In this document: positions 1-16,360 of the stretch, one piece after another | How the letters are laid out: each line of letters starts with the position of its first letter | Numbering within the stretch: position 1 is the stretch's first letter | Source: a virus | Strand: one strand, 5' to 3' | Length of the DNA: 24,856 nt | IMG/VR virus record: IMGVR_UViG_3300017728_000103 | Location: 1-24,856 of that record | The notes under the pieces: generated by a model | What the model was told of the DNA's origin: nothing | The model's database searches: none | What the model saw: only the letters and a program-made list of their open reading frames with translations | Position numbers and translations under genes: made by a program

Positions 1-777
1 CAAGAAATATCAGAAGCAAGACTATATAGGACTTCTAGAAACTTTAATGCTCTCACAGGAGAGGATGTTACAAAATTATTTTACTTAACATCTTTAAGTA
101 CATATATGATGCTCAATGATGATAAACAAATTGATTTTGCTAAAGAATACATAAAACAAACAGTACAATATGGCCCTTATACTTTATTTAGAAGTCATGC
201 AACAGACTTGTATTTGTTAGGGCATGTAATAAGAGACCCAGATACAAGAAGTATTACATTGAAAAATCCTATATCAAGTAAACAGTATTTAAATAAATTA
301 AACTTTGATTCTAGAAAACATTACATGTTTTATATGAGACTTAAAAACACTACAATAAAAAATACAGAATTTAATTCTTACTTTTTAAGATTAGAAAGCC
401 AACTACAAATAAAAGATCAAAAATATAAACAATGGCGTAGGTTAGTTGCAGATTGGGGTAATTTAAAATATACTTCAAGACAATTAGTAGTAACAAGAAT
501 GTTACAAGAATATCGTAGACTAGGAAGAGGCAGTGAAATGGTAGGTCCTTTAAGTACTATGACTAAGTATAGAGACTTTAAACCTTCTAAATATCAAGAA
601 CCTAAAACAAGTTTTGCAAAAAGAGCCGCCGGAACAGTTGCAGGTGCGGCCGCAGGAAGATATGTAGGAAAGAAAGTTGCAAAGAAATTAGGCAAAGATA
701 TTGATAAATATAAAAAGTACGGTACAGGAATAGGTGCAGTAGCAGGTTACTGGGCAAGTGGAAGAAAGAAACAATGA
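1..777 (+). CDS. 5'-truncated probable virion/internal head protein
   Basis: The frame is open from base 1, so the gene starts before the window and the first Met at base 106 is not a convincing start. There are 258 visible codons. The first visible residues are QEISEARLYR; the I-S-E|A at codons 3-6 matches the T4 prohead-protease consensus, so a short N-terminal targeting peptide may lie just upstream. The body is basic and probably helical, with many Tyr and Arg. The last 50 or so residues are rich in Gly, Ala and Lys (GTVAGAAAGRYVGKK, then GTGIGAVAGYWASGRKKQ), a glycine-zipper-like pattern often seen in proteins that contact membranes or pack helices tightly. The stop overlaps the next ATG (ATGA). 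From general familiarity with marine T4-like phages I expect a virion protein; the function is unknown. Confidence 0.75.
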   Translation, partial: QEISEARLYRTSRNFNALTGEDVTKLFYLTSLSTYMMLNDDKQIDFAKEYIKQTVQYGPYTLFRSHATDLYLLGHVIRDPDTRSITLKNPISSKQYLNKLNFDSRKHYMFYMRLKNTTIKNTEFNSYFLRLESQLQIKDQKYKQWRRLVADWGNLKYTSRQLVVTRMLQEYRRLGRGSEMVGPLSTMTKYRDFKPSKYQEPKTSFAKRAAGTVAGAAAGRYVGKKVAKKLGKDIDKYKKYGTGIGAVAGYWASGRKKQ

Positions 778-1475
778 AAATTAATGAAATAATTTTTGAG
801 GCATGGATTAATTTGCCTCCAGAAGAAGCGGCAAGAGAAAAACAATCCGCTGATCAAGAATTTCGTGCTCTTAAAGGCATAGATTCTCCTGACTCCGTAA
901 AACTTGCTGATTTATTTAGAGCCGCATTTGCTGTTACAGGTACTGTGGATTCTGCTTATGAAAAAGCAAGAGCAGATATGCGTAAATTAAATATGGACCC
1001 AATAGCAGTTCGTGATTTTGATAAAGCCGCTAAAGGATATGCAAGTGCAATTAAGGGCGATGTAGATCCAATTGGATTACCTGATAATGCTCCAATTTTT
1101 AGACAAAAGGGCGGTGGAGTTGACATATCAAATATGCCAGTTCCAGGTGGCCCAGGCCCAAGCGGACCAAGAGACAGACGTGGTTCAGATGGAAGATCAC
1201 TACAACACGATAAGTTCTATAGACCAAAAAGTAAGGCTGGACAAGCCGTTGATAATGTAGGAGATTGGGCTGATAAGTATTTCGGTGATTTACCAGGTGC
1301 AGGATTAGTTAAAAAAGCGGCCAAAGGTGCTAAAAAAGTAGGAAGTGCTGTAACGGCACCAGTAAGAGCAATAACAGATCCAGTAAGAAGTGGATATGAT
1401 TTCATGAAGGGCGATGGCGATCTTACTGGTCTAGATGCATTTAGGCAAGGTCGTAGAAGACGTACAATTCAATAA
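774..1475 (+). CDS. Probable capsid-targeted internal protein, 233 aa
   Basis: The start ATG overlaps the previous stop as ATGA, which suggests translational coupling. The N-terminus MKINEIIFE|AWINL carries a 9-residue tag ending in I-F-E|A, an exact match to the gp21-type prohead-protease consensus. The middle (about residues 95-150) is rich in Gly, Pro and Arg and looks disordered (PGGPGPSGPRDRRG). The C-terminus has Gly/Ala/Lys-rich amphipathic stretches (LVKKAAKGAKKVGSAV) and ends in basic GRRRRTIQ. No catalytic domain is recognisable. The tag, basic character and disorder suit an internal head protein bound to packaged DNA; that role is inference. Confidence 0.75.
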   Translation: MKINEIIFEAWINLPPEEAAREKQSADQEFRALKGIDSPDSVKLADLFRAAFAVTGTVDSAYEKARADMRKLNMDPIAVRDFDKAAKGYASAIKGDVDPIGLPDNAPIFRQKGGGVDISNMPVPGGPGPSGPRDRRGSDGRSLQHDKFYRPKSKAGQAVDNVGDWADKYFGDLPGAGLVKKAAKGAKKVGSAVTAPVRAITDPVRSGYDFMKGDGDLTGLDAFRQGRRRRTIQ

Positions 1476-1509
1476 AGGCGTATAATATTAAGATAAATTC
1501 TACTTTTTT

Positions 1510-1517
1510 GATAAATA
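1510..1517 (+). promoter_or_regulatory. Late promoter box GATAAATA
   Basis: GATAAATA matches the T4-like late-promoter consensus NATAAATA. It is intergenic, 44 nt before the ATG at 1562, with a hairpin (1526-1539) and an AGGAG site (1551-1555) in between. Confidence 0.75.
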
Positions 1518-1525
1518 AGTGTAAC

Positions 1526-1539
1526 GCATAAAATTATGC
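1526..1539 (+). promoter_or_regulatory. 5'-leader hairpin
   Basis: The inverted repeat GCATA...TATGC has a 4-nt loop and starts 8 nt after the late-promoter box, so it would sit at or near the mRNA 5' end. Equivalent hairpins at 1984-1998 and 2363-2380 have the same placement, which supports a role in mRNA stability or translation. Confidence 0.5.
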
Positions 1540-1561
1540 TTAAAAAAATTAGGAGATAAAA

Positions 1562-1909
1562 ATGGCACAATCAAAAGGAAACGGAGCAGGTGTAGGCGAT
1601 TTTGCAACAGGTACACTTATCCAAAAACATAACGTAGCATGTATCTTAGTTGATACTGGTGCAGACCTTAGAACAGAAGACGACGCAGAAAGAGAAGCAG
1701 TTGAAAGAGCACTTCAATTCATTCAACCTTTAGCATACGAAATTACTGATGACAACAGTGGTAAAATCCACGCAGTTGTTGACGGAAGTCAATTTGATGC
1801 GGCGGCTTTACAAGCACAAATTAGAGCAATTGGAAGTGTAACAGATCCAACAAGTTATAACTTTAGTAGTGCAACAGTTACAGCAGGATCAGGCTTAGTA
1901 GTAAGTTAA
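1562..1909 (+). CDS. Small, probably abundant virion protein (115 aa, MAQ- family)
   Basis: A strong AGGAG site lies 6 nt before the ATG. The 115-aa protein has no Cys-based motif or membrane segment apart from one Cys, and its second half looks beta-rich, ending in Ser/Thr/Gly-rich strands (NFSSATVTAGSGLVVS). It shares the MAQ- start, the leader design and a weak C-terminal pattern (VDG, then a helix with [QR]A[IL]G[ST]V, then a [FL]xSA strand) with the protein at 2400-2771, so the two may be distant paralogs. Its own promoter, 5' hairpin, strong ribosome site and terminator suggest high late expression, as expected of a decoration or tail-tube-like virion protein. The exact role is unknown. 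Confidence 0.8.
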   Translation: MAQSKGNGAGVGDFATGTLIQKHNVACILVDTGADLRTEDDAEREAVERALQFIQPLAYEITDDNSGKIHAVVDGSQFDAAALQAQIRAIGSVTDPTSYNFSSATVTAGSGLVVS

Positions 1910-1927
1910 GTTTTACTTAAAACATTT

Positions 1928-1957
1928 AAAAAGGCAGTTTATACTGCCTTTTTTTAT
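1928..1957 (+). terminator. Rho-independent terminator
   Basis: The stem AAGGCAGT (1931-1938) pairs with ACTGCCTT (1943-1950) around a TTAT loop and is followed by a T run. It lies just after the stop of the 115-aa gene and closes that cassette. Confidence 0.9.
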
Positions 1958-1966
1958 GATCAATAT

Positions 1967-1974
1967 GATAAATA
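1967..1974 (+). promoter_or_regulatory. Late promoter box GATAAATA
   Basis: The intergenic GATAAATA lies just after a terminator and exactly 44 nt before the ATG at 2019, the same spacing as in the preceding cassette. Confidence 0.75.
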
Positions 1975-1983
1975 AAAGTAACG

Positions 1984-1998
1984 GCGATATAATATTGC
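1984..1998 (+). promoter_or_regulatory. 5'-leader hairpin
   Basis: GCGATA pairs with TATTGC (one G-U pair) around a TAA loop. It starts 9 nt after the late-promoter box and ends 9 nt before the AGGAG site (2008-2012), matching the leaders of the neighbouring cassettes. Confidence 0.5.
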
Positions 1999-2018
1999 TA
2001 AAAAATTAGGAGAATAAC

Positions 2019-2288
2019 ATGGCGCAAACAGATAGAAGAGCGGCTGATAGCGGTGAATTCGTAGGAAAGGATATATTCTTAAAAAGTTTTCAACAACAAT
2101 CAGGAAATATTTCAGCATCACAATTAACAGCATTAGTTAGTTCAGTACAAAACTTTAACCTTACAGTATTAAAAGTTGGTAGTTTTAGTGCAGGTGCACA
2201 GGCAACTGTAAACTTTATACTAGAAGGTGCAGACAACCTAGCAAACGGTGACCTAGCAGGACACGTTATTGCAGACGTCTCATTCTAA
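2019..2288 (+). CDS. Small probable virion protein (89 aa, MAQ- family)
   Basis: The gene has an AGGAG site at 2008-2012 and its own late promoter, leader hairpin and downstream terminator. The 89-aa product starts MAQTDRRAADSGEFVGKD, continues with a Gln/Ser-rich segment and ends in alternating hydrophobic strands (TVLKVGSFSAGAQATVNFIL) typical of a small beta-sandwich. It has no Cys, signal peptide or membrane helix. The cassette design shared with 1562-1909 and 2400-2771 argues for a stoichiometrically abundant structural component. I do not recognise a named family. Confidence 0.78.
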   Translation: MAQTDRRAADSGEFVGKDIFLKSFQQQSGNISASQLTALVSSVQNFNLTVLKVGSFSAGAQATVNFILEGADNLANGDLAGHVIADVSF

Positions 2289-2303
2289 GTTTATAACTTA
2301 TTT

Positions 2304-2334
2304 AAAAAATCCTCACTAGTTGGGGATTTTTTTT
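2304..2334 (+). terminator. Rho-independent terminator
   Basis: AAAAAATCCTC (2304-2314) pairs with GGGGATTTTTT (2322-2332) around ACTAGTT, with a T run to 2334. It is nearly identical to the terminator at 2791-2817. Confidence 0.9.
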
Positions 2335-2346
2335 GACTTTAAAAAA

Positions 2347-2354
2347 GATAAATA
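2347..2354 (+). promoter_or_regulatory. Late promoter box GATAAATA
   Basis: The intergenic GATAAATA follows directly on the preceding terminator and lies 45 nt before the ATG at 2400. Confidence 0.75.
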
Positions 2355-2362
2355 CTTGCATA

Positions 2363-2380
2363 GGATACTTTTAAGTATTC
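2363..2380 (+). promoter_or_regulatory. 5'-leader hairpin
   Basis: GGATACT pairs with AGTATTC (one G-U pair) around TTTA. It starts 8 nt after the late-promoter box and ends 8 nt before AGGAG (2389-2393). The position is shared with the two upstream cassettes but the sequence is not. Confidence 0.5.
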
Positions 2381-2399
2381 AGTAACATAGGAGAATAAC

Positions 2400-2771
2400 A
2401 TGGCACAAACTAAAGTAAATCCTGTATATGTAGATGAAGAAAAGTTTTTTATTGGTCTTAAACCAACGTTTTTTGAAGTAACGTTTGGAGCGGCCGTAAA
2501 CGCAAAAACTGGACCTGAAAGTACAATACAGACAGTTATACATGCTATTTTAAATGAAAATCTTTCAATCCTAGGCATGAGTGCATTGTATGACACAAAC
2601 CAAACAATAGCATTTATGGTTGATGGTGAAAAAGGCACTGACACGTATGACGGTTCAAACAGTGAAACCCTAGCGGTTCACTTAGAAGACGTTATTCAAG
2701 CATTAGGAACAGTTGACGGAATCAACTTAGCAAGTGCTTCATGTACAGCAAAAACATTTGTATTAGCATAA
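2400..2771 (+). CDS. Small probable virion protein (123 aa, MAQ- family)
   Basis: An AGGAG site lies 6 nt before the ATG. The 123-aa product starts MAQTKVNPVYVDEEKFF. The C-terminal half (a VDGEKG turn, a helix containing VIQALGTVDG, and the strand LASASCTAKTFVLA) resembles the end of the 115-aa protein at 1562-1909, suggesting distant paralogy. Together with the matching promoter, hairpin, ribosome site and terminator, this points to cassette duplication followed by strong divergence. A virion role is inferred from the expression signals and surroundings. Confidence 0.8.
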   Translation: MAQTKVNPVYVDEEKFFIGLKPTFFEVTFGAAVNAKTGPESTIQTVIHAILNENLSILGMSALYDTNQTIAFMVDGEKGTDTYDGSNSETLAVHLEDVIQALGTVDGINLASASCTAKTFVLA

Positions 2772-2790
2772 CCTTAAAAAGGTAAAAAAG

Positions 2791-2817
2791 AATCCTCACT
2801 TAGTGGGGATTTTTTTT
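2791..2817 (+). terminator. Rho-independent terminator
   Basis: AATCCTCAC (2791-2799) pairs with GTGGGGATT (2803-2811) around TTA, followed by an 8-T run. It closely matches the terminator at 2304-2334, including the G-U wobble in the stem. Confidence 0.92.
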
Positions 2818-2838
2818 GATCTGGAAATCTGAAATCCT

Positions 2839-2846
2839 GATAAATA
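2839..2846 (+). promoter_or_regulatory. Late promoter box GATAAATA
   Basis: GATAAATA lies 20 nt before the ATG at 2867 and shortly after the terminator. There is no hairpin in the short leader; CGGAG serves as the ribosome site. Confidence 0.72.
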
Positions 2847-2866
2847 GTACAAAGACGGAGACACAC

Positions 2867-3274
2867 ATGAGTTTACCAAATAGAAGTGGAGCAATGGGTA
2901 GCAGTGAAGTGCTATCAAGTAATATAGAATATTACTCGTTATTCACAAAAATAGATATTACCAGTACTGGAGACTTTACTGATAACACACAAAAAGATTT
3001 TGAAAGTGTTGTACAAGTAATAGGATTAAGGGCACAACCAGTTGTTATGAATAATCCTGTTAATCTGAATGGCGCAGGTGCAAATGTATTAGAAAATTAC
3101 GGTGCACCAACACTTACAGGAGCAGGTTGGATTTTTAAATTTGCTTTTGAAAGAGAAGGAGTGCATTCTATACAAACACTTAAAGACGAATTAGATGGAA
3201 TAGTACTGAATGGAGGTACAATAGATACTAAAAGTTCAGTAAATATGGAATTTACTAAACAAGATTTATTATAA
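2867..3274 (+). CDS. Probable virion structural protein, 135 aa
   Basis: The start is set at 2867 (MSLPNRSGAM) rather than the in-frame Met at 2816. A late promoter lies at 2839-2846, a CGGAG site sits just before 2867, and the upstream codons run through the terminator region. The product has 135 residues, is rich in Ser, Asn and Gly, and reads as beta-structured (SSEVLSSNIEYYSLFTKIDI; LTGAGWIFKFAFE). Similar short sequences beginning ...RSGAMGSSEV are familiar to me from marine T4-like phages as uncharacterised structural proteins; this is recall, not a search result. No terminator follows, so transcription probably continues into the next genes. Confidence 0.78.
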   Translation: MSLPNRSGAMGSSEVLSSNIEYYSLFTKIDITSTGDFTDNTQKDFESVVQVIGLRAQPVVMNNPVNLNGAGANVLENYGAPTLTGAGWIFKFAFEREGVHSIQTLKDELDGIVLNGGTIDTKSSVNMEFTKQDLL

Positions 3275-3284
3275 GAGATAAACA

Positions 3285-3524
3285 ATGCCTAAAAAGAACA
3301 AACCGGAACTTAAACCAAAACCTTATGTTGAGAGCGGTAACATAGAGGCACATATAATTGCAGATATGCTTAGAATAGAAAGCATTACCGCAGAACTAAG
3401 AGAATTCAAAGATGTTACAAAAAGTAGATTAGACAAATTAGAAAATTGGATTGTTGCTATTGTTGGATTAACAGTAACAACATTAATATCTACAGTTGTA
3501 GGACTAGTATTAAAAGTATTATGA
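3285..3524 (+). CDS. Small coiled-coil protein with C-terminal membrane helix (XhlA-like)
   Basis: The 79-aa protein has a Lys/Pro-rich head (PKKNKPELKPKP), a charged heptad-like helix at about residues 20-50 (IADMLRIESITAELREFKDVTKSRLDKLE split over two turns), and one hydrophobic segment at about 53-77 (WIVAIVGLTVTTLISTVVGL). This layout, an amphipathic coiled coil followed by a single C-terminal membrane helix with a very short tail, is that of the XhlA/hemolysin-type accessory proteins that work with phage holins. A lysis-accessory or membrane-anchor role is plausible but unproven. The stop overlaps the next ATG (ATGA). Confidence 0.72.
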   Translation: MPKKNKPELKPKPYVESGNIEAHIIADMLRIESITAELREFKDVTKSRLDKLENWIVAIVGLTVTTLISTVVGLVLKVL

Positions 3525-3803: not shown

Positions 3804-6800
3804 ATGAAGTTTTCAGATGTTAAAACATTAGAACATATTTTAAAAGAGTATTCTTATAATAGCTCTGGGCCCCCTCTGCCTTCCGGCAATCAAAAACATG
3901 GACAAGTAGCAAAAGCAGTAGATCAAGTTAAAAAACAGCAACAAGTTCAGCAACAACCTACTATACAACCACCTAGCAACGATAAGGTTGTAATAAATCC
4001 TCAAGCCGCACAACCTGTAAAGAAAAAAACAGGACACCAATTAAAGCGAAATGAAGTAATTAGAGATTTAGAATCAGGTCAACCTTTAGGTGTAGTTATA
4101 AGTCCTAAAGGACAAGGGGAATTTAAAGATAAGGTCACAGTACAAGCAAGTAATGGACAGATTATAAATGTAGATCCACAACTAGAATTTAGTGTAGATG
4201 TAACAGAATCTTCTAAATACAGGAAAAAATTTAAATTAAAACGTAAAATCAAAAAACTTGCAAGAAAAAGACTTAAAGAAGCAGATCAAGAATTATTTGA
4301 AATAAACTTTAATAGAAAAAGTGTAGCATCAGAGGCCTTAGACGCTCCAATCAAATGTGGTTTTGAAGCAGAAACTTTTTGGTATGGTGTTGAAAGTAAT
4401 TCCAGTGACGATGTAGATGGAATGACTATTGGTGACATTGAATACGAATTCGGCGATTTACCAGATCAAGCATATGAAGATTATCAGGACTGGTTATATC
4501 AAAAAGGACAAGATGATTACTTAGAAGATTTAATAGATGAAAAAGTAGATGAGCATAAAGAAGATGAAGATTATTTAAATGATTTCATAGACAGCAGTTC
4601 AGGTCCAAGTTCAGAAGCAATAGAAGTTTACAAAGACAATTTCAAAGATTCTGATCCAGATGAATTTGAAAACCGTGAAGAAGATGGTTGGGAATATATT
4701 AACTGGGTTAGAGAATATGTTGAAGAAGAATACGAAGCAGAATATTTAGACTGGTTAAGAGATGCAATACAAGAAGAATACGATCTAGATGACGAAGCCA
4801 AAGAACTAGCAGAAGGTGACTATAGTATGGACGAATGGGTCTATGAAATGTATAGTTATATGAGTACTTTCTTAGACGAATATGGATATGAATACAGCAG
4901 ACCAGAAGATGGAACAGAAAATGTTGCTAGTGTTTTAAATGGTTGGATAGAAAACAATAGTCAATTTACAGATTATCCTGATCATGGTGATTACGGAGAT
5001 ACATATACAACAACTGCTTGGGCAGTAGAAAGAGACTCCAGTATTGATCCTGATGAGGGTGTAGGAGCAGAAATAATTTCTCCTGTATTTAGTAGTCCTA
5101 GAAAAATGCTTGAAGAAATGAAAAGTTTATTTGAGTGGGGAGAAGATGAATTTGGTACTAACAACTCAACAGGTTTACATGTTACTATGAGTTGGCAGGG
5201 TAATAAAGATGAAAACGGTGAACCATATAGAACAGAACCAAATAAGTTAAAAATGGCATTACTATTAGGAGATCAATATTTACTTTCTGAATTCGGTAGA
5301 TTAAAAAACAGTTACACAAAAAGCCAATATCAAAACGTATTAAAAGCGGCTGAACGTATGAAACGTGGTGATGCAAAAAGTTTTGAAGAATTTGAAAAGA
5401 TGCTTACAAAAGGAATAACAACCGATAAATTCCAAAGCATACATTTTAAAACTGAAAAAGATAAAGATTCAGATAATGAACTTATAGAATTTAGAATTGC
5501 TGGTGGCTCTGATTATCAACAAATGTTACCACAAATAGTTAAAGCAGTAGTAAGATATGCTACAATTATGAAATCAGGTTATGACGAAAATGCATTTAGA
5601 AGCGATTATATAGGTGCAGTAAGCAGAGTTTTGCGTAAAAGTCAGGAAGTAGATCCTGAAAAATTAAAAGATTTACTACATGTTACTCATCCAGTTATAG
5701 ATTCAGCAAAAGATATAGTTGGTAAAAAAGATTACTTTGACGTTGTAAACCTTTTAAGTACTAGTGTTGAAAGTTTGAGATATTATCAAGAATTAAGCAA
5801 ACCAGGTGCTGATAAAAAATGGGAACAAAGTATAAAAGATTACAGAAAAAATACTGGAAGTGATCCAAGTTGGATGGGCGAAAACATCAACGAAGACGAA
5901 ATTACAGGATATATAGAACCTGATAGAATAAAACCCAGTAAAGGCGCGGCAATAGAATTAAAAGGTGCACAGGATAAATTTATATCAGCAATAACTATTT
6001 TATCCAGAGATGTATCAGACGGATTAAATAGAAATCCTGTAAGAGCCAAAGATGTAGGCATATTTAGAAAATTTGCAAATGAAGTAAAATTAGATACACA
6101 AGGTATAGAAAGACTTATTTTATCAAAATTAAATGATTTTAATTTCACTGGCACAGATAAAGAAAACATAGCAAGATTAAAAACTGGAATCAATGTTTTA
6201 TTTAAACAGGACATAATAAAGAATCCTGAATTTCTTATCCCTCAAGAAGTAGATGCTATTGCTTCTAAAATGTGGCAATTTTTCCAAAATGATGATTCTA
6301 AAGACAATACTAAATTAGATAAATTAGCAGAACTACTTATGCAACTTAATCCTGCTAATGAAAAAGCAGATATTTTAGATGTATTAGCTCAACTTTCAGA
6401 CGAAAGAGCTCAGAACGGATTTGTGGCTAAACTAAGAGGTTCAGGTTATCATACCCGTATAGCAATAGTAAAAGACGGTTCTATAAAAACACCTAACTCA
6501 TCAAACAATTTACTTAAATTTTTAGAACCCTATAAAGGTTATAATTATCCAACAGGAAAACAACATCATATTAATATTAGAAGCGATGATAATTATGAAG
6601 AAGTAGCCAAAAGTGCTCTAGTTCAAAAAATGAGATTCAGATTAGATCATTTGGGAGATTTAGAAAGAGATAATAAAGAAAAGTATTTAAAAATAAAAAG
6701 TGATCTTATTAAAATCGCAAATGATTTCTTAAATACCGTTGTAGCAACAGCAATACAACGCGATGAAGTTCTAGATAAATTTGGTAAAGAAGTTTCTGAA

Positions 6801-9800
6801 TATACTGATGAAGAAAGCGGCTGGTGTTTAAGTAGTAGACAAAGAAGAGTTCAAGAGGCATTAGATTTTTTAGTAAGAGTTGAAGATGAAGATGATGATT
6901 TGTATAACTTTATATCTGCATATGACGATTATATAATAAGAAATCAAATGGAAAACATACCAATTTATTATAAAAGTAAACGTGAATTTCCTGGGATACA
7001 TGAAAACCCACAAGTTAAAAAAGTTGTAAAGAAAAATTTTGCAGGATTTAAAAAGTTCTTAAGTTCTTTTGATAAAATTTTTACAGCAGAAGGATTTACA
7101 GATCTTAAAGCAGAAATATCTGATAAAAATAGATACGATAAACGTAACAAAGACTTTGAAACAAATATCAGAGATAATTCAAAGGCAAAATTAAACATAC
7201 CAAGTCACAGTTGGTTTTACATAGACAAAGATTTTTTTGAGACAATAACAGATAAAAGTTATAGTGATAGAGAAGCATATTTAGATAATCATTTAGAACA
7301 TTTTGGCGGTTCAAGTTTAAATAGTACTAAAGTTTATGTAATACCTTCAAGTCACTGGAGCGATGCCGAAGACGCCACTAATGGTTTAGAACTTATAGAC
7401 ACTTTTGAAAAAAATAAAAACTATTATCACAGTTGGAGAAAGAAAGATTATAGACGCATAGTCAATAAGTTCCAAAACAAATATGGGTTTAGTTGGAAAA
7501 AATTAACTAACGGAGAAGATTTTTTATCAGGCGACGGGGACTTGTATTCCACACTTAAAAAACTAGGCATTGAGATTACAAATCAAGGAGACAGTAGAAA
7601 AGGTGCACCCGGACAAGACGATTTAGTTGATGGTGAAGCAACACAAAATCCTACTAGTGGTGAGCCACTAAACAGAAGTAGTGCAATAAGTTGGTCAATG
7701 AATACCGATGGCGCAGAGGAAAGACAATTTAATGCATTTGATTGGAGTGTATATCCAGATAAGATGAAAGACATTGTTGCTAAGGTTATGAAGCAAGATC
7801 GATACGGTAGTTTTAAAGTAGCATTAGAAGATGTACTTAGAAAAGTTTTAGATGGTGACATAGATATACAACCTGAAGATTTAGGTAAACCGTTAGAAAG
7901 GCTTGCTTTTGCGGCTGGTGTAGAGAATATGGACGGAAATTCTTCAAACAGTATAGCAAGTGATACAAATTGGACTAACTTAGCAGACTTTTTAAAAATA
8001 GAACGTGGTGTAAATGATCAAGGTGTAAACTTATTGAAAAAAGTTTATGATCAATACGACGGCAATCACGAATGGAGGCCAAATTCAGAAGATGGCCAAA
8101 ATGTAATTGGATTACAAAGATGGGGTGCCGCAGTCAAGGCCGCACACGAATATATACAAAAGAATTATTCAGTAAGTGGCGGAAACTATTTTAGAGACGG
8201 TGATAATGTAAGTCAAATGTATGGTGGTTCAGAACCTACAGCAGATGATAGATCAGCATATTCATCTGAAGTATCAGAAGACGATTATGCAACAACTAGA
8301 CAAAAATATATAATGTTTAATAATATGATGGCTATGGGTATACAAAACTATATAGTACAATCTGATGTGAACAGACTAGTAGCATTCTTGAAAAATCCTG
8401 ATAATGATGAAGCATTTAAAAGTCATGTACTTTTAGGACTACATAAAAATAAAGAACGTGGTGAAGAAGCAAACGATTTTTACGGTGCATTAGCATACGG
8501 TAGAAGAGAATTAGCACGAAACGAAAGTGCGATAAATAGTAATATGTCTACTATATTTGAAAAATTTGAAGATCTATCTTTTGCAAAACAATTGGATATT
8601 ATATCTAAAATAGATTCTAAAAAAATCAACGAAGCATGGAGCAAAAAATATAAATCAAGTATAGACTGTAATAATCCAAAAGGATTTAGTCAAAAGGCTC
8701 ATTGTGCAGGTAAAAAGAAAAAGAAAAAGGCAAATGAAAGTGTACCAGACAATACAAAGTTAAGAATGTTAAATCATCTACTATCTGATCATATGCCTGC
8801 AAATGATATTAAAAAACAAATGGATGCCTTTTTTGCTTTACCAGATCCTAAAATGATAAAGGCCTTTAGGCACAGACGGGCAGAGGGCGGAGACGATGCA
8901 TGTTTAAGACCTATTTTAAGAAGTTTTATAAAACGTCAAATGCCTGATACTCAACGTAAATTTATAAATCTAAATGAAAACAAACTTAATGAGTATGAGG
9001 ATTTAGAAGCAGAAAAAACAAAAATACAGGATATTGTAAGTAAACTTGATATAGACCAAGAAAAAGACAGAGAACTTATAGACCAAATTTGGAGAATTCT
9101 TAATGCTGATCATATTCAATCTGTAATAGGCAAATTAGTTGTAAAACCAATTGCAGATGAAACTGCTATGAATAAAGAAGCGGCAACAAAAGTTTTAACA
9201 CAGGTAATATATCAAATTGAAAGTAGTTATGATAAGATTAAAGAGTTTTTAGATGATTTAGAAAAAACAGGTTCTGCATATGATGTTGACGCACTAAAGC
9301 AACCAATCAATTCTTTATCAAATATTTTTAAATCAGATGTAGGCTATACAGTATTTAAAACATTACTGCCTTATGGCGTAGGTGCTAACAAAAAAGGCCC
9401 TGGAGAATTTGCTTTAGCCATGTTAAGTGATAGGGTACAATTAAGCGATACTACAGGAGATGTTGTTATAGATGGTGAACTTGTAGAGGTTAAAGCAAGT
9501 AAAAGTGAGACAAGTTCAGGCGGTGGTAGGTTAGGTATGGGCGGTATGCCACAGTTAAAAGCAAGAGATGTTTTATTAAGATATAAAGACACAATACCTT
9601 CAGTAGCAAGTCACTTGGAAAATGAAAATAATAAAACATTAGGTATAGGTAAGTTTGTCGAATATTTAAATCAAGATCTTCCTGTAGGTGATAAAAGAAG
9701 ATATGATATTGCTAAAGATTTTTATAAAGATCTTTTTATTCCTGTAGCAGTAGAAAAAATTGCAAAGGCTTTCCAATCAACAGATGATATACAAGAAATT

Positions 9801-10034
9801 GGAAAACAATATGCAGGTGCTAATTACATTGATTATTTAAATAAAGGAAAATTTGAAGCATTATTGGCAATAGATATGTATACTGGTAAATCAGCATATC
9901 TACCAAGCGAAGAAGAGTTTATAAAATTTGTAGAAGGACCTCACTCTGGTGCTATGGGTATCAGTGTTGTACCTTCTAATTCAGGACCAACAGAATCATT
10001 TGTACAAATGACATTTAGAAAGGGCAAGGTATGA
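3804..10034 (+). CDS. Giant tagged head polyprotein: amidoligase-like domain, long unknown region, PD-(D/E)XK nuclease
   Basis: This 2076-aa protein is by far the largest in the window. Residues 1-15 (MKFSDVKTLEHILKE) resemble the N-terminal tags nearby. A Gln/Pro-rich linker follows, then a basic segment (136-159) bracketed by V-T-E|S and L-K-E|A. Residues about 180-600 match the amidoligase (peptide ligase) pattern: GFEAE at 185-189, a W-x-V-x-x-D-x-S block near 403-412 followed by GAEIISP, GLHV near 459, and a late IEFRIAGGS block; a very acidic insertion sits inside it. Residues 600-1600 are unassigned. A basic segment with Cys1622 and Cys1634 (1611-1645) is bracketed by I-N-E|A and A-N-E|S. 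The C-terminus has a nuclease core, GPGEF at about 1865 and D1886...E1895-V-K1897. I infer a packaged polyprotein cut by the prohead protease. Family calls are by motif only. Confidence 0.85.
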   Translation: MKFSDVKTLEHILKEYSYNSSGPPLPSGNQKHGQVAKAVDQVKKQQQVQQQPTIQPPSNDKVVINPQAAQPVKKKTGHQLKRNEVIRDLESGQPLGVVISPKGQGEFKDKVTVQASNGQIINVDPQLEFSVDVTESSKYRKKFKLKRKIKKLARKRLKEADQELFEINFNRKSVASEALDAPIKCGFEAETFWYGVESNSSDDVDGMTIGDIEYEFGDLPDQAYEDYQDWLYQKGQDDYLEDLIDEKVDEHKEDEDYLNDFIDSSSGPSSEAIEVYKDNFKDSDPDEFENREEDGWEYINWVREYVEEEYEAEYLDWLRDAIQEEYDLDDEAKELAEGDYSMDEWVYEMYSYMSTFLDEYGYEYSRPEDGTENVASVLNGWIENNSQFTDYPDHGDYGDTYTTTAWAVERDSSIDPDEGVGAEIISPVFSSPRKMLEEMKSLFEWGEDEFGTNNSTGLHVTMSWQGNKDENGEPYRTEPNKLKMALLLGDQYLLSEFGRLKNSYTKSQYQNVLKAAERMKRGDAKSFEEFEKMLTKGITTDKFQSIHFKTEKDKDSDNELIEFRIAGGSDYQQMLPQIVKAVVRYATIMKSGYDENAFRSDYIGAVSRVLRKSQEVDPEKLKDLLHVTHPVIDSAKDIVGKKDYFDVVNLLSTSVESLRYYQELSKPGADKKWEQSIKDYRKNTGSDPSWMGENINEDEITGYIEPDRIKPSKGAAIELKGAQDKFISAITILSRDVSDGLNRNPVRAKDVGIFRKFANEVKLDTQGIERLILSKLNDFNFTGTDKENIARLKTGINVLFKQDIIKNPEFLIPQEVDAIASKMWQFFQNDDSKDNTKLDKLAELLMQLNPANEKADILDVLAQLSDERAQNGFVAKLRGSGYHTRIAIVKDGSIKTPNSSNNLLKFLEPYKGYNYPTGKQHHINIRSDDNYEEVAKSALVQKMRFRLDHLGDLERDNKEKYLKIKSDLIKIANDFLNTVVATAIQRDEVLDKFGKEVSEYTDEESGWCLSSRQRRVQEALDFLVRVEDEDDDLYNFISAYDDYIIRNQMENIPIYYKSKREFPGIHENPQVKKVVKKNFAGFKKFLSSFDKIFTAEGFTDLKAEISDKNRYDKRNKDFETNIRDNSKAKLNIPSHSWFYIDKDFFETITDKSYSDREAYLDNHLEHFGGSSLNSTKVYVIPSSHWSDAEDATNGLELIDTFEKNKNYYHSWRKKDYRRIVNKFQNKYGFSWKKLTNGEDFLSGDGDLYSTLKKLGIEITNQGDSRKGAPGQDDLVDGEATQNPTSGEPLNRSSAISWSMNTDGAEERQFNAFDWSVYPDKMKDIVAKVMKQDRYGSFKVALEDVLRKVLDGDIDIQPEDLGKPLERLAFAAGVENMDGNSSNSIASDTNWTNLADFLKIERGVNDQGVNLLKKVYDQYDGNHEWRPNSEDGQNVIGLQRWGAAVKAAHEYIQKNYSVSGGNYFRDGDNVSQMYGGSEPTADDRSAYSSEVSEDDYATTRQKYIMFNNMMAMGIQNYIVQSDVNRLVAFLKNPDNDEAFKSHVLLGLHKNKERGEEANDFYGALAYGRRELARNESAINSNMSTIFEKFEDLSFAKQLDIISKIDSKKINEAWSKKYKSSIDCNNPKGFSQKAHCAGKKKKKKANESVPDNTKLRMLNHLLSDHMPANDIKKQMDAFFALPDPKMIKAFRHRRAEGGDDACLRPILRSFIKRQMPDTQRKFINLNENKLNEYEDLEAEKTKIQDIVSKLDIDQEKDRELIDQIWRILNADHIQSVIGKLVVKPIADETAMNKEAATKVLTQVIYQIESSYDKIKEFLDDLEKTGSAYDVDALKQPINSLSNIFKSDVGYTVFKTLLPYGVGANKKGPGEFALAMLSDRVQLSDTTGDVVIDGELVEVKASKSETSSGGGRLGMGGMPQLKARDVLLRYKDTIPSVASHLENENNKTLGIGKFVEYLNQDLPVGDKRRYDIAKDFYKDLFIPVAVEKIAKAFQSTDDIQEIGKQYAGANYIDYLNKGKFEALLAIDMYTGKSAYLPSEEEFIKFVEGPHSGAMGISVVPSNSGPTESFVQMTFRKGKV
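8531..8546 (+). promoter_or_regulatory. Possible internal late promoter with in-frame start inside the polyprotein gene
   Basis: GATAAATA (8531-8538) is followed after exactly 5 nt by an ATG (8544) in the polyprotein frame, at residue 1581. Four genes in this window have the same box-N5-ATG layout at their starts. If active, it would yield a 496-aa C-terminal product (8544-10034) beginning MSTIFEKFEDLSF and containing the Cys/Lys module and the nuclease. A chance match inside coding sequence is possible. Confidence 0.35.
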
Positions 10035-10852
10035 ACATAAAAGACATTTTAAAAGAAAACTATACATTACCAGATATCACATATGACGAGTATGGTATGC
10101 CTGAATATTCTCAATACTTAGATATGATTTCTAAAGTTTTTAAAAAAGGATTAGGTAAAGTACAAATACAAAGATTTTTACAAAACAAATTAGAAATCAC
10201 TGGAAGTAGTGCTAGAGAACTAATATCAAAATGGGAACAAGTAAATAGACAACAAATTCCTATGAAATTAAATGCAGAAGCCGGAGGCGCCGGAGGCGGC
10301 GGTGCAGGAGCAGGTGGCGGTGCAGGTGCTAGTGCTGGTGCAGGTGCAAGTTCAGGTGGTGACGGTGGTTCAGCAAGTTCAAGTGGAGACAGCGGGTCTG
10401 CAGGCAGTGGTGACACTGGTTCCGCTGATTCCACGCCTAGTGATGCACCTACTATGAGTGCTCCTAGAGGTTATGCATTTTTAGGTAGCATGATGCCAAC
10501 TAAAAAGAAAAAGAAAAAGAAGAAAAAGAAAAGTAAACAATTTAAGTTTGGTGGCGGCATTTACGAAAATGTAGAACAAATGGAAGATAAATTATGGGAC
10601 TTAAAATCTGCATTAGAATCTGTAAGAGCAGAAACTAAAAATATTAAATATGCTGATATGCATATGGATATAATTAACAAAGTCTCTAACATTGCAGAAG
10701 AAAACGATATTGAACTAGATGAATATAATGTAAATCAAGTTTACAGAGCAAAAAATAAATTAGAAAGTGCAATATATCAATTAGAAGAAGATTTTGAAGA
10801 AGCAATTAGAGATATGCAAAACGCAATAGATATGTACGATGAAAATATTTGA
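10031..10852 (+). CDS. Tagged Gly/Ala/Ser and poly-Lys protein, probable internal head protein (273 aa)
   Basis: The gene begins with an ATGA overlap with the polyprotein stop. The N-terminus MNIKDILKE|NYTL has the 9-residue tag form. Residues 30-75 look like a small helical, possibly helix-turn-helix, unit. Residues 84-137 are a low-complexity Gly/Ala/Ser/Asp linker. Residues 158-167 are ten consecutive lysines, soon followed by I-Y-E|N at 177-180, another possible protease site. Residues 180-273 form acidic, heptad-rich helices (EQMEDKLWDLKSALESV; KLESAIYQLEEDFEEAI), probably a coiled coil. The layout, DNA-binding patch, flexible linker and coiled coil, fits an internal or scaffold-like head protein. 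No enzyme motif is seen. It overlaps the SOD gene by 14 nt. Confidence 0.78.
   Translation: MNIKDILKENYTLPDITYDEYGMPEYSQYLDMISKVFKKGLGKVQIQRFLQNKLEITGSSARELISKWEQVNRQQIPMKLNAEAGGAGGGGAGAGGGAGASAGAGASSGGDGGSASSSGDSGSAGSGDTGSADSTPSDAPTMSAPRGYAFLGSMMPTKKKKKKKKKKSKQFKFGGGIYENVEQMEDKLWDLKSALESVRAETKNIKYADMHMDIINKVSNIAEENDIELDEYNVNQVYRAKNKLESAIYQLEEDFEEAIRDMQNAIDMYDENI
10280..10441 (+). repeat. Low-complexity Gly/Ala/Ser coding repeat
   Basis: Irregular GGTGCAGG/GGCGGT-type units encode a flexible Gly/Ala then Ser/Gly/Asp linker (residues 84-137 of the 273-aa protein). It is clearly more GC-rich than its surroundings and could vary in length between relatives. Confidence 0.7.
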
Positions 10853-12281
10853 TGCAATACAGCAAGTAGTACCTTGCCCTAGAACAAAATCAACAGGATG
10901 TCAATGCGATAAACTTGAAGGTATAACTGAGGCTGAAGAAACTATTAAAGCAATAGCACAATTAGAGCATACTGTAGATGATGTACAAGGGTTTGTAAAA
11001 TTTAAACAAAAGCCAGGTCAACCAACTATTATAAAAGGTATAGTTAAAGGTCTAACACCTGGTAAACACGGTTTCCATATACACGAATACGGAGATTTAA
11101 GTGATGGTTGTGCAAGTGCAGGAGGACATTATAATCCTGACGGTGTTGATCATGGTAATATATCTCAAGGACATGTAGGCGATTTAGGAAACATAACAGC
11201 AGACCAAACAGGAACTGCTAGATTTCAAATTAAAGCAGAACGTGTAGAATTATCTGATGTAGTAGGTAGAGCAATAGTAATACATGCAGATGAAGATGAC
11301 TTAGGTAAAGGCGGAGATGAAGAAAGTCTTAAAACAGGTAATGCTGGTGATAGATTAGGTTGTGGCGTAATACGTTTAAGAGAAGTTGTAGAGGAAGATT
11401 ATCAAAGAAAAACATTTGATAAACATTTTGATAGAAATCAACTACCACAAATTAATAGAACAGATGTAGAAAATTCTGATTTTAATTATAAAGAAGGTAA
11501 AATAAGTTTATCTAACTTAAAACCAGTACAATCACAACGTGTACATGGATATGATAAAAAAGCAGAGCAAGTATTTTTACAGGATATAGATAAGCCTTTT
11601 ATAATAGATAAAAACGGATATATTATAAACGGTCATCATAGATATGATGCGGCAAATATTTTAGGTATTAAACGTGTCAAAGCAATAAAAATAGATGCAG
11701 ATATAGAAGATGTAATGAATTATTTTTCCCATACAAGTAGTGATACAAAAGTAATGGGAGAAGATTATTTTAAAAAATTATTGCAAGAAAAAATGGCAGT
11801 AATTGAAGATGTTACAACCTTAAAACCTCAAACAAAAGGCACAAAGTATCCTTTGTTTAGTAAACAGAACATTCAAAAAGCATACAATGAATGGGCAAAT
11901 GGCGCCGAGGTAGACAGAGATATTAACATAGTAGGCAAAGACAACAAAGAGTATGTAATACGCCAAAACTATGATGATGCCAGCCAACACTTTGAGGAAG
12001 GAGAGTGGTATCTCACTAATGCTAATAACGATATTGTAGATACTGAAGGTTATCCGGACCCAGGAGAACTTTTATACGACCATAATTCAGATGAAGAATT
12101 TTATCCAGATGATGAGGTAGAAGAAGCCAAAAGTTCACCAGGCAGAGTAAAACGTGCAGGTGCAAGTTGCAAAGGTTCCGCAACGGAACTTAGAGCAAAG
12201 GCTAAAAAGTACAGTGGTGAAAAAGGCAAAATGTATCACTGGTGCGCCAACATGAAAGGCGGCAAGAAAAATCCTAAATAA
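10839..12281 (+). CDS. sodC: Cu/Zn superoxide dismutase fused to ParB-like domain, probably packaged
   Basis: This is a 480-aa fusion. Residues about 32-180 are a complete Cu/Zn superoxide dismutase, which converts superoxide to hydrogen peroxide and oxygen: copper ligands H80, H82, H149 and bridging H97; zinc ligands H105, H112, D115; disulfide pair C91/C175; and the guiding arginine R172. There is no signal peptide, unlike most bacterial SodC. The N-terminus is instead MKIFDAIQQ, a Cys-containing linker and G-I-T-E31|A32, a prohead-protease-type site just before the SOD fold. Residues about 196-300 carry a ParB/sulfiredoxin-type fold (FIIDKNGYIINGHHRYDAA). The tail (431-480) is a basic module with C444 and C469 (SSPGRVKRAGASC, MYHWCANMKGGKK). 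I infer delivery inside the capsid. The SOD call itself is secure. Confidence 0.93.
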   Translation: MKIFDAIQQVVPCPRTKSTGCQCDKLEGITEAEETIKAIAQLEHTVDDVQGFVKFKQKPGQPTIIKGIVKGLTPGKHGFHIHEYGDLSDGCASAGGHYNPDGVDHGNISQGHVGDLGNITADQTGTARFQIKAERVELSDVVGRAIVIHADEDDLGKGGDEESLKTGNAGDRLGCGVIRLREVVEEDYQRKTFDKHFDRNQLPQINRTDVENSDFNYKEGKISLSNLKPVQSQRVHGYDKKAEQVFLQDIDKPFIIDKNGYIINGHHRYDAANILGIKRVKAIKIDADIEDVMNYFSHTSSDTKVMGEDYFKKLLQEKMAVIEDVTTLKPQTKGTKYPLFSKQNIQKAYNEWANGAEVDRDINIVGKDNKEYVIRQNYDDASQHFEEGEWYLTNANNDIVDTEGYPDPGELLYDHNSDEEFYPDDEVEEAKSSPGRVKRAGASCKGSATELRAKAKKYSGEKGKMYHWCANMKGGKKNPK

Positions 12282-14887: not shown

Positions 14888-14895
14888 GATAAATA
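14888..14895 (+). promoter_or_regulatory. Late promoter box GATAAATA
   Basis: The intergenic GATAAATA lies 34 nt before the ATG at 14930. The leader contains an inverted repeat (ACTATA 14898-14903 with TATAGT 14911-14916) and a weak AGGA before the start. Confidence 0.7.
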
Positions 14896-14929
14896 AGACT
14901 ATATAACAAATATAGTTTAGGATATTATC

Positions 14930-16360
14930 ATGCAAATAAAAGATTTTAATTTAAAGGGTACAGACAAGATTACTAAAATCAATGCTGTGCTGAAAGAAGA
15001 ATTTGGTATGAAAATTTCAGCAGGATTCCCCAAGAAGGAAAAATTGGAAACAATTAAGGAAATGTCTGAAATGGCCATAATCAAGTTGAAAGACACTTCA
15101 AAACATTTCCAATTAGAACCTGAGTACGCAAAGTTCTTAGGTGTAAAAGATGTAATTGAAACTATGCTTTCTGAAGGACAGTACGCAAACTCACCAGCAT
15201 ACCAAGGAATGAAACAAGAACTCTATGCAGATGTTACAAGACTTATGGATAGCGGTTGTACTAATGAAGAAGCAGTAGCAGAAACAATGAACATATTCAG
15301 AAAGAATCCTAAGTATTGTTATGATGATAACCATGTAAAACCTATTGTTATTAAAATGGTTAAAGAATATATGCAAGAAGGCGAAGTAGGAACACTTGCT
15401 GGAGGTATAGGTGGAGCATTGGCGTCACCGGCAATAGGAGCCGCATTAGAGCCTTGGATACCAGGAGCACAAGCGGCCTTATCAGGTACAGGAGGTAGAA
15501 TTGGCACAGCAGTTGCAGGTGGTATCGTAGGTGATAAATTAACTGATTCTGTACTAAGAGGACTATCCGAAGAAATTGGTATTGCTGTAGAAGACTTAGA
15601 AAGTTATGATGCAATAGAAGAAAAACTTAACATGTTTGCAGAAGTATCAGGTAAAAGCAGAGATTCAGTAGTAGGCTTCCTAAACGGCCTAGAAGAAGAT
15701 GCTTTACCACAAGGTATTCAAATGTTTGGTAGAAAAATTGCAGAACGTAAATTAACTGACAGCATCTCATACATGTACAAACTACAAAAAGACGGTAAGA
15801 GTGTTGAGGATATTGCTAAAGAACTTGGTATGAAACCAGAAGAAGTTAAAGATGCAATGAGTAAAACTGCAGAGTCTGTAGAGGAAAATAATATGAATAT
15901 GTTTGACGATATAATAGCAGATATGCTATCAGAAGAAGTTAAAGTAGAAGAAGCAGAAGTCTTAATGGCTGTAAGAGCATTAGCAGATGACATTCAAGAC
16001 CAAGTTGAAAGAGTAGGTAGAATGGTTAACGAAGATTTACCAGCAATAGCAGACCAAATGATGTCTGAAATGGGTGCTCAACAGGCGGCTCAATTTAAAG
16101 ACAGCATGGAAGGAATCTTATCAGGACATTTAGAAGCCACTAAGGCAAGTAAGAATAGCATAGACGGTATTATTGGCGGACTTACAGGAGAAGGCAGTAT
16201 GGGTTCATTAGGTGATTTAGCAGAACCTGATATGGGCGATGAAATGCCAGTAGACTTAGGAAACCAAGAACCAAGTATAGATGATTTAGCAGTAGATGAT
16301 AATGTACCAGCGGCGGCAGGACCAGAAGAAGAGCCACTAGGTAGAGCACCTATAGAGTAA
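14930..16360 (+). CDS. Large probable virion structural protein, 476 aa
   Basis: The start follows a late box and AGGA. The N-terminus MQIKDFNLK resembles the head-protein tags but lacks the Glu cleavage site. Residues 10-150 are helical and charged. Residues about 152-202 are Gly/Ala-rich and hydrophobic (GTLAGGIGGALASPAIGAAL; IGTAVAGGIVGDKL), like a glycine-zipper membrane-active stretch. Residues 286-312 could form a helix-turn-helix (GKSVEDIAKELGMKPEEV). Residues 340-400 are acidic helices (LMAVRALADDIQDQVERVGRM), and the tail is acidic and Pro/Gly-rich. Similar ADDIQDQVERVGRM...LPAI helices are known to me from structural proteins of marine T4-like phages. A head, scaffold or ejected membrane-interacting role is possible; it is not resolved here. 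Confidence 0.8.
   Translation: MQIKDFNLKGTDKITKINAVLKEEFGMKISAGFPKKEKLETIKEMSEMAIIKLKDTSKHFQLEPEYAKFLGVKDVIETMLSEGQYANSPAYQGMKQELYADVTRLMDSGCTNEEAVAETMNIFRKNPKYCYDDNHVKPIVIKMVKEYMQEGEVGTLAGGIGGALASPAIGAALEPWIPGAQAALSGTGGRIGTAVAGGIVGDKLTDSVLRGLSEEIGIAVEDLESYDAIEEKLNMFAEVSGKSRDSVVGFLNGLEEDALPQGIQMFGRKIAERKLTDSISYMYKLQKDGKSVEDIAKELGMKPEEVKDAMSKTAESVEENNMNMFDDIIADMLSEEVKVEEAEVLMAVRALADDIQDQVERVGRMVNEDLPAIADQMMSEMGAQQAAQFKDSMEGILSGHLEATKASKNSIDGIIGGLTGEGSMGSLGDLAEPDMGDEMPVDLGNQEPSIDDLAVDDNVPAAAGPEEEPLGRAPIE

Follow-up and report, generated by a model that had tools for sequence, protein, structure and literature searches.

Leader hairpins of constant position and variable sequence in uncultured T4-like phages, and their probable role in mRNA stability

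What is gained when neighbouring viral genes are given leaders that fold alike but do not read alike? The question is raised by a 24,856-base IMG/VR record, IMGVR_UViG_3300017728_000103, positions 1 to 24,856, which is called the window here and has a GC content of 33%. Its genes p1, p2 and p3 lie in tandem, and each is preceded by the box GATAAATA, a hairpin that begins at about the ninth base after the box, the Shine-Dalgarno (SD) sequence AGGAG and the ATG. Across relatives, the predicted RNA shape of these leaders is strongly conserved and their sequence almost not at all. The structures, their conserved position, the free exchange of their sequences and their restriction to gene families followed by a terminator were observed by computation; from these we infer a stabilising effect and a high demand for the gene products. 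In particular, the 5'-terminal stem-loop probably slows 5'-end-dependent decay of single-gene late mRNAs. The parts of the three units, and of the unit that follows them, are these:

1510..1517, plus strand: late-promoter box 1, GATAAATA, a T4-type late box
1523, plus strand: predicted +1 (A) of unit 1, placed, like all +1 positions in this text, by the T4 rule, the conserved A and the box-N5-ATG peak
1526..1539, plus strand: 5' hairpin 1, 5 base pairs (bp), loop of 4, starting at +4; fold of -4.2 kcal/mol
1551..1555, plus strand: Shine-Dalgarno AGGAG 1
1562..1909, plus strand: p1, 115 amino acids (aa); open reading frame with relatives found
1928..1953, plus strand: intrinsic terminator after p1, from the sequence; the terminator scan named the stem on the minus strand
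1967..1974, plus strand: late-promoter box 2, GATAAATA
1980, plus strand: predicted +1 (A) of unit 2, placed as for unit 1
1983..1999, plus strand: 5' hairpin 2, 7 bp including G-U pairs, loop of 3; fold of -5.0 kcal/mol, weaker with coding sequence
2008..2012, plus strand: Shine-Dalgarno AGGAG 2
2019..2288, plus strand: p2, 89 aa; open reading frame with relatives found
2304..2332, plus strand: intrinsic terminator after p2, from the terminator scan
2347..2354, plus strand: late-promoter box 3, GATAAATA
2360, plus strand: predicted +1 (A) of unit 3, placed as for unit 1
2363..2380, plus strand: 5' hairpin 3, 7 bp, loop of 4; fold of -5.6 kcal/mol
2389..2393, plus strand: Shine-Dalgarno AGGAG 3
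2400..2771, plus strand: p3, 123 aa; open reading frame with relatives found
2791..2817, plus strand: intrinsic terminator after p3, a 7-bp stem followed by a T run, read from the sequence and missed by the stricter scan
2839..2846, plus strand: box 4, GATAAATA, with a short leader without hairpin (an internal control)
2867..3274, plus strand: p4, an open reading frame with further genes directly 3'; its family is without terminator (0/41 testable)

An earlier note on this DNA had given the distances between box and ATG as 44, 44 and 45 nucleotides (nt), which is what boxes at 1510, 1967 and 2347 and ATGs at 1562, 2019 and 2400 yield. The three hairpins that it had pointed out are recovered by folding, the second being extended from a core at 1984-1998 to 1983-1999 by an outer G-U pair, and the gap of 8-11 nt between hairpin and AGGAG is found in all three leaders. 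The fourth box, at 2839, with its short leader free of a hairpin, does not figure in the note. When the leaders are folded up to the ATG, the SD is unpaired in each, and the z-scores are -2.40, -2.13 and -1.59 for leaders 1, 2 and 3, respectively; the same hairpins stay in the best structures when approximately 11 nt of coding sequence is added. When the three leaders are shuffled with their dinucleotides preserved, a stem of at least 5 pairs from +4 or +5 appears in 2.8%, 2.1% and 7.7% of cases, respectively, which puts the joint chance of all three stems at about 4.5e-5 by a criterion chosen after the data had been seen. The z-scores of single window leaders are modest, and the main support for the predicted hairpins being real, which is strong, comes from the relatives.

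Other identities of the hairpin were considered and rejected. It is not an intrinsic terminator, as no T run lies 3' of the three window hairpins on the plus strand and none was seen by eye on the other. A hidden host sigma-70 promoter was dismissed as well: the promoter-like matches over leaders 1 and 2 are weak, the stems of the relatives' leaders are unrelated, and the region holds 6 sigma-70-like promoter matches against 8.2 expected from shuffles. Control by sequestering of the SD, of the T4 gene e type, was discarded because the hairpin leaves the SD free. An Rfam cmscan of window positions 1-3400 returned two matches only, of 23.9 and 23.8 bits, which are below the gathering scores of 56 and 55. 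One more GATAAATA leader lies at window positions 14888-14930; it has an inverted repeat, ACTATAT/ATATAGT, that runs from -3 and spans the predicted start, unlike the other leaders.

Hairpins in relatives and in control families

Protein searches gave 31 loci for p1 (63 with a p1 profile), 14 for p3 and 80 kept of 135 for p2, with many contigs in common. From the uncultured loci and the window, all GATAAATA boxes with an SD, an ATG and a frame of at least 40 codons downstream were collected, which resulted in 237 distinct leaders, and a simple hairpin was counted at -1.5 kcal/mol or lower. Such hairpins are present in 29/31 distinct leaders of p1, 46/58 of p2, 9/12 of p3 and 22/31 of an 80-aa family (MAQANPN..., also called p5). 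The same box is followed by no hairpin in any distinct leader of the p4 family (0/44) or of a 228-aa family (0/13), and by one in 1/5 tail tube and 1/3 tail sheath leaders. Families of two or three members contribute 1/3, 0/3, 0/2, 0/2 and 1/2, besides 17 singletons. In a family whose box lies inside the preceding gene (window 703), 3/5 leaders reach the hairpin threshold, with large loops and no leader character.

A larger set was obtained by clustering leaders at 80% identity, allowing loops of up to 10 nt and scanning hairpin starts from +1 to +10 only. Here, 55 of 64 clusters of the four families have a hairpin (p2 19/24, p1 16/18, the 80-aa family 13/13, p3 7/9), and 50 of the 64 lie at p<=0.05 against shuffles. 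In the control clusters there is none (p4 0/13, 228-aa family 0/6; 0/19 in total). Among the nine clusters without a simple hairpin, three bear a larger composite one, L101 has a 4-bp stem just under the threshold, the alternatives available to L016 and to the p3 leader L118 are weak ones only, and the remaining three, L124 (p2) and L038 (p1 and p3), have none. An earlier set of 39 clusters gave hairpins in 34, with 32/39 beating shuffles at p<=0.05.

The two arms of each hairpin belong together. In an arm-swap control on the 34 hairpin clusters of the earlier set, the 5' half of one leader was joined to the 3' half of another: the mean of the best hairpins was -4.34 kcal/mol for the leaders' own halves and -0.65 kcal/mol for recombined ones, and 0 of 20,000 permutations reached the observed mean. 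For one of the 34, L024, a second match overlapping the box had shifted the register by 4 nt, which the later set puts right. Moreover, 48 of 55 5' arms are distinct. Together with the arm swap, this upholds the earlier proposal that structure rather than sequence is kept. Several automatic consensus folds on mixed clusters returned no structure, because MAFFT cannot align unrelated stems.

Six p2 leaders (L017, L056, L077, L080, L083 and L098), with 70-73 nt from box to ATG, box included, carry a composite hairpin in place of the simple one. In the outer stem of these six sequences, 48/48 pair cells are paired, with 12 double changes, and 0/500 shuffles reach the covariation score, though the structure was chosen from the same sequences that were scored. 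The composite hairpins share a conserved inner loop, GACA..UGAAGAA. The exact core was found in 19 viral stretches, of which 6 have GATAAATA in the part shown and are this group, and the other 13 have no box there. The inner loop of this elaborated hairpin could bind a ligand or a protein. A different arrangement is seen in four of the five tail tube leaders (L135, L137, L143 and L154, but not L149), in which the SD lies within a short inverted repeat, GTTC..AGGAGAAC; this repeat could close the ribosome site.

Predicted transcript start and unit layout

The box GATAAATA can be interpreted as a late promoter box of the T4 type because relatives carry T4-type genes, including those for a gp23-type capsid and a gp55-like sigma factor. 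Genes for a T4-type tail sheath and tail tube are present on related uncultured contigs, and a 250-kilobase (kb) uncultured relative encodes a capsid protein of the gp23 type (E 2.9e-81) together with a late sigma factor resembling gp55 (E 3.5e-7, 31% identity). The sigma factor search covered six uncultured records other than the window, with one positive, the other five being shorter and possibly fragments. The capsid gene of the 250-kb relative has no ATAAATA box within 137 nt upstream and thus seems to be without the feature. In the window, nrdA and nrdB are approximately 58-62% identical to their closest matches among the best-scoring records listed; among the matches listed, Stenotrophomonas phage DLP_6 is closest, with Xanthomonas, Cronobacter, Erwinia and other phages. 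A search with p2 at E 0.1 found no relative among 50,697 phage records, which leaves p2 without a close cultured relative, and a pattern-based scan of bacterial genome contigs found none either.

In T4, the late promoter box spans -13 to -6, according to the available part of PMC1524935. Placed by this rule, the predicted +1 is an A in 64/64 clusters, and in 38/39 clusters of the earlier set it is preceded by T or C. A second line of evidence comes from ATGs that open frames of at least 50 codons within 30 nt of an ATAAATA box. In the window, such an ATG stands exactly 5 nt after ATAAATA five times and never at any other spacing below 20 nt; the boxes are at 12277, 13304, 14260 and 24512, plus 8531, which lies inside the gene at 3804-10034. 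In the uncultured loci, the spacing-5 peak comprises 6 distinct contexts in which the box is GATAAATA and 21 in which its first letter differs, homologues included, and in cultured phages the counts are 8 in HTVC008M, 1 in S-PM2, 0 in T4 and 0 in 121Q. With spacing 5, the T4 rule makes the first base of the ATG the +1. The peak agrees with a start 6 nt downstream of the box and would lend independent support to the predicted start site, and the spacing-5 boxes suggest candidate leaderless late mRNAs of other genes.

Transcription from box 8531 would yield, in frame, the C-terminal 496 aa encoded by its 2076-aa gene. The protein encoded there (3804-10034) is matched in phage records only over short stretches, in Atu_ph07 and two cyanophages (6 records). 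Elsewhere in the window, positions 10839-12281 encode a 480-aa phage protein with a Cu/Zn superoxide dismutase domain (Pfam Sod_Cu, E 2e-44).

Relative to the predicted start, the hairpin begins at +4 in 39 of 55 clusters and at +5 in 10, with all 55 starts falling within +2 to +7, and leaves an unpaired 5' tail that is most often AUA (24) or AAC (10). The standard deviation (sd) of the hairpin start is 0.88 and that of the hairpin-SD distance 1.99, in a scan limited to starts from +1 to +10; because the start varies less than the distance to the SD, the hairpin appears to be anchored to the predicted 5' end. It ends on average 9.1 nt upstream of the SD. Stems have 4-8 bp and loops mostly 3-5 nt, and the GC fraction is 0.51 in stems versus 0.19 in the remaining leader. 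The suggestion of the earlier note that the hairpin caps the mRNA thus stands as far as nearness to the 5' end is concerned; the stem is not flush with that end, which carries a 3-nt tail and is itself a predicted position.

The hairpin is linked to what follows the gene. An intrinsic terminator was sought within 110 nt after the stop codon for leaders with enough downstream sequence. It was found in all 125 testable cases of the hairpin families (p1 31/31, p2 55/55, p3 10/10 and the 80-aa family 29/29, from 31, 58, 12 and 31 leaders, respectively) and in none of the 56 testable cases of the others (p4 0/41, 228-aa family 0/10, tail tube 0/5); no tail sheath leader was testable. Predicted hairpin leaders are therefore confined to families with a terminator after the gene. 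Since the hairpin families end in a terminator, their units look like single-gene mRNAs structured at both ends. They occur in the tandem orders p1-p2-p3-p4, p1-p2-p4 and p5-p2-p4, in loci that overlap, so that the counts are redundant.

Role of the hairpin

How a hairpin of this kind might act can be outlined as follows. Each small gene would form its own late transcription unit under a T4-type (gp55) late promoter, and the transcript would comprise a stem-loop approximately 3 nt after the first base, an AU-rich single strand, a strong SD, the gene and an intrinsic terminator. The stem-loop would serve as a sequence-independent cap that hinders an RppH-type pyrophosphohydrolase and the 5' sensor of RNase E, or RNase J, depending on the host. 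The ribosome site would stay largely open below this cap, and a short single-gene mRNA structured at both ends would live longer. Such effects are documented: in the available part of PMC3997798, a 5' hairpin stabilises bla mRNA and impedes RppH, and the accessible text of PMC2254391 describes ompA and T7 gene 10 mRNAs as protected by 5' stem-loops whatever their sequence.

Several observations weigh against a stabilising role or weaken its basis. The leaders of the control families are shorter, which in itself leaves less room for a hairpin, and the leaders L124 (p2) and L038 (p1 and p3), shortened to 39-40 nt, are free of hairpins. The stems are short, with a mean of -4.8 kcal/mol and members ranging from the -1.5 threshold to about -9. 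In the window, the addition of about 11 nt of coding sequence changes the z-scores to -1.12, -0.84 and -2.33, which is unfavourable for leaders 1 and 2; the best structure of leader 2 then has an ensemble frequency of 0.079, the hairpin being present in part of the ensemble and missing from the centroid, and in leader 3 part of the ribosome site pairs, separately from the 5' hairpin. In the alignable p2 group of 12 rows, two of which are out of register, pairing is 86.1% versus a column-shuffle mean of 87.4, without excess; pair counts in the same group exceed those of slid structures, and the variation is mostly in the loop. A symmetric mismatch count meant to tell RNA from DNA constraint is even (6 G-U, 8 A-C), and mismatches on consensus folds (G-U 12, A-C 4, other 17) come from folding that itself favours G-U.

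The published parallels also set bounds. The part of PMC3997798 available reports that lacZ and rpsO mRNAs are not stabilised by a 5' hairpin and that RppH of B. subtilis needs two unpaired 5' nt and prefers three or more. The predicted 3-nt tail of most hairpin leaders is at the edge of this requirement, and since the stem is not flush with the end, protection may be partial.

The earlier note had spoken of a stability device for abundant virion mRNAs, of which the mRNA stability part accords with the terminator-ended hairpin families and the abundance part fares less well. In codon adaptation to tail and capsid genes among 25 window genes, p1 ranks 1st and p2 4th but p3 only 19th, so codon bias does not mark p3 as highly expressed. 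The proteins themselves say little: no PHROG or Pfam family was found for p1, p2 or p3 at E 0.01, p1 and p2 profiles had no significant match in the PDB, and of 16 relatives of p1 a single one gave a weak match to a baseplate-wedge family (E 0.035). The AlphaFold models have a mean predicted local distance difference test (pLDDT) score of 57.6 for p1 and 48.7 for p2, values that do not warrant a fold search. The idea that p1-p3 have a common leader because they are paralogues was rejected on profile comparisons of two pairs, p1-p2 (probability 2.4%) and p1-p3 (weak, 22%, E 0.00096).

A broader proposal can be put forward tentatively, and it is somewhat less likely to be right than wrong. Uncultured T4-like phages may use a serial cassette, in which a late promoter and a sequence-free 5' hairpin precede a strong SD, one small gene and a terminator, to make long-lived single-gene late mRNAs. 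The hairpin would then be a module open to free replacement, with selection acting only on its shape and on its distance from the first base. Other genes would be leaderless, the leader design being set gene by gene, and one subclade would have elaborated the hairpin.

Among the rival explanations, a role in translation, though rather unlikely, survives best. The hairpin would insulate the SD from upstream pairing or form a standby site for the 30S subunit, and mRNA lifetime would be secondary. This is in keeping with the unpaired SD of the three window leaders and the mean gap of 9.1 nt. However, the position of the hairpin is more constant relative to the predicted 5' end (sd 0.88) than to the SD (sd 1.99), p4 and the 228-aa family have short leaders in which an SD occurs without a hairpin, and the link with terminator-ended units is left unexplained.

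A hairpin that formed as RNA polymerase left the promoter could also prevent back-tracking or R-loops and so raise promoter output. The fixed distance from the promoter and the free sequence of the hairpins speak for it. This role is nevertheless decidedly unlikely, as the same box stands before p4 and the 228-aa family without a hairpin (0/19 clusters), and we know of no parallel for a transcription-acting hairpin at gp55 promoters.

It is very unlikely that the hairpin is an operator, that is, a recognition site for a regulatory protein, as in feedback by a gene product or control by a phage translational repressor. The composite p2-leader hairpin of the subclade, with its conserved inner loop (6 sequences, 48/48 pair cells), speaks for such a site. 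In the common form, however, stems and loops are unrelated (48/55 distinct 5' arms) and stand before four gene families, and the p1-p2 profiles are unrelated (2.4%) and the p1-p3 ones only weakly similar (22%, E 0.00096). For the common form, a sequence-specific operator was accordingly rejected.

A shield against a specific host-defence or phage ribonuclease that enters at the 5' end, rather than against ordinary decay, is highly improbable, even if T4 late mRNAs are targets of the host RNase LS, which is countered by Dmd (PMC3014915, in the part available). Finally, chance palindromes or terminator remnants in AT-rich intergenic DNA are scarcely credible and were rejected: single leaders of the window score only modestly against shuffled sequence, and still more so when coding sequence is included, but shuffles, the arm swap and the control families exclude a chance origin, the window hairpins are not followed by a T run, and every unit ends in a terminator of its own. 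Slower 5'-end-dependent decay thus remains the preferred reading of the hairpin.

Comparison with known systems

No earlier description of such leaders was found in the literature searched by title and abstract opening, with subscription papers mostly outside the search. Ordinary sequence-motif searches would miss a shape that is conserved without its sequence. What emerges is an RNA shape linked, in uncultured phages, to one gene architecture, that of terminator-ended units.

The leaders resemble the T4-type late promoters (gp55/gp33/gp45) and the NATAAATA of cyanophages in the box GATAAATA, the position of the leader and the gp55-like sigma factor of a relative. In particular, GATAAATA at its fixed position is an 8-bp box that resembles TATAAATA and lies roughly one helical turn upstream of the predicted start. 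In cultured phages, by contrast, most ATAAATA leaders are without such hairpins: in long-enough leaders, hairpins of -2 or lower were counted in 1/8 for T4, 1/10 for S-PM2, 3/12 for HTVC008M and 5/27 for 121Q, and the leaders at p<=0.05 number 2, 1, 2 and 4, respectively, in a scan that allowed any first letter of the box and took in boxes not individually checked as real promoters. Given so few hairpins in these four phages, the feature does not appear to be a general one among T4-like phages, though isolated cases exist. One of them is the tail sheath leader of the Pelagibacter phage HTVC008M (L257, L291; coding sequence from 66853), which has a 7-bp hairpin from the predicted +1 and is a tractable place for testing the idea in a cultured phage.

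The leader of T4 gene e is similar in that a hairpin lies near a late promoter upstream of a phage gene. Its structure inhibits translation, and late transcripts are without its 5' part, as far as the available part of PMC3014915 states. In the leaders described here, by contrast, folding of the leader leaves the SD unpaired, and the predicted late transcript includes the hairpin.

Bacterial 5'-terminal stabilising stem-loops form another group for comparison, and papA is named among them. Those of ompA and the hairpin added to bla likewise lie near the 5' end, with a sequence that is unimportant, according to the parts of PMC3997798 and PMC2254391 available. The present case differs in that it involves a serial set of short phage late genes, a 3-nt tail and a stabilisation that is only predicted. 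If the prediction is true, these phages hold a natural library of dozens of hairpins at one position, with hairpin-free controls in the same genomes. Such a library would test how near to the 5' end a stem must lie for an mRNA to be protected.

The closest likeness is to gene 10 of T7, the major capsid gene, whose late mRNA starts at phi10, opens with a 5' stem-loop and has a terminator, T-phi, after the gene. Promoters of the phi10 kind are termed class III. Either terminal stem-loop has reportedly been credited, in the title of a 1996 paper by Mertens and colleagues, with stabilising the gene 10 mRNA. When five T7 late leaders were folded, phi10, phi9, phi13 and phi17 had a stem that starts at +1 and phi6.5 did not; the z-scores were -3.00 for phi10, -2.29 for phi13 and -1.16, -1.13 and +0.64 for the other three, so that only phi10 and phi13 lie well below shuffles. 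The 5' arm of the T7 stems is the common GGGAGA start at +1, whereas here the stem begins at +4 and neither arm has a fixed sequence; the two systems also differ in polymerase, promoter, phage group and genes. Thus, if the stabilising role holds, these leaders would be an independent T4-like counterpart of the T7 gene 10 leader.

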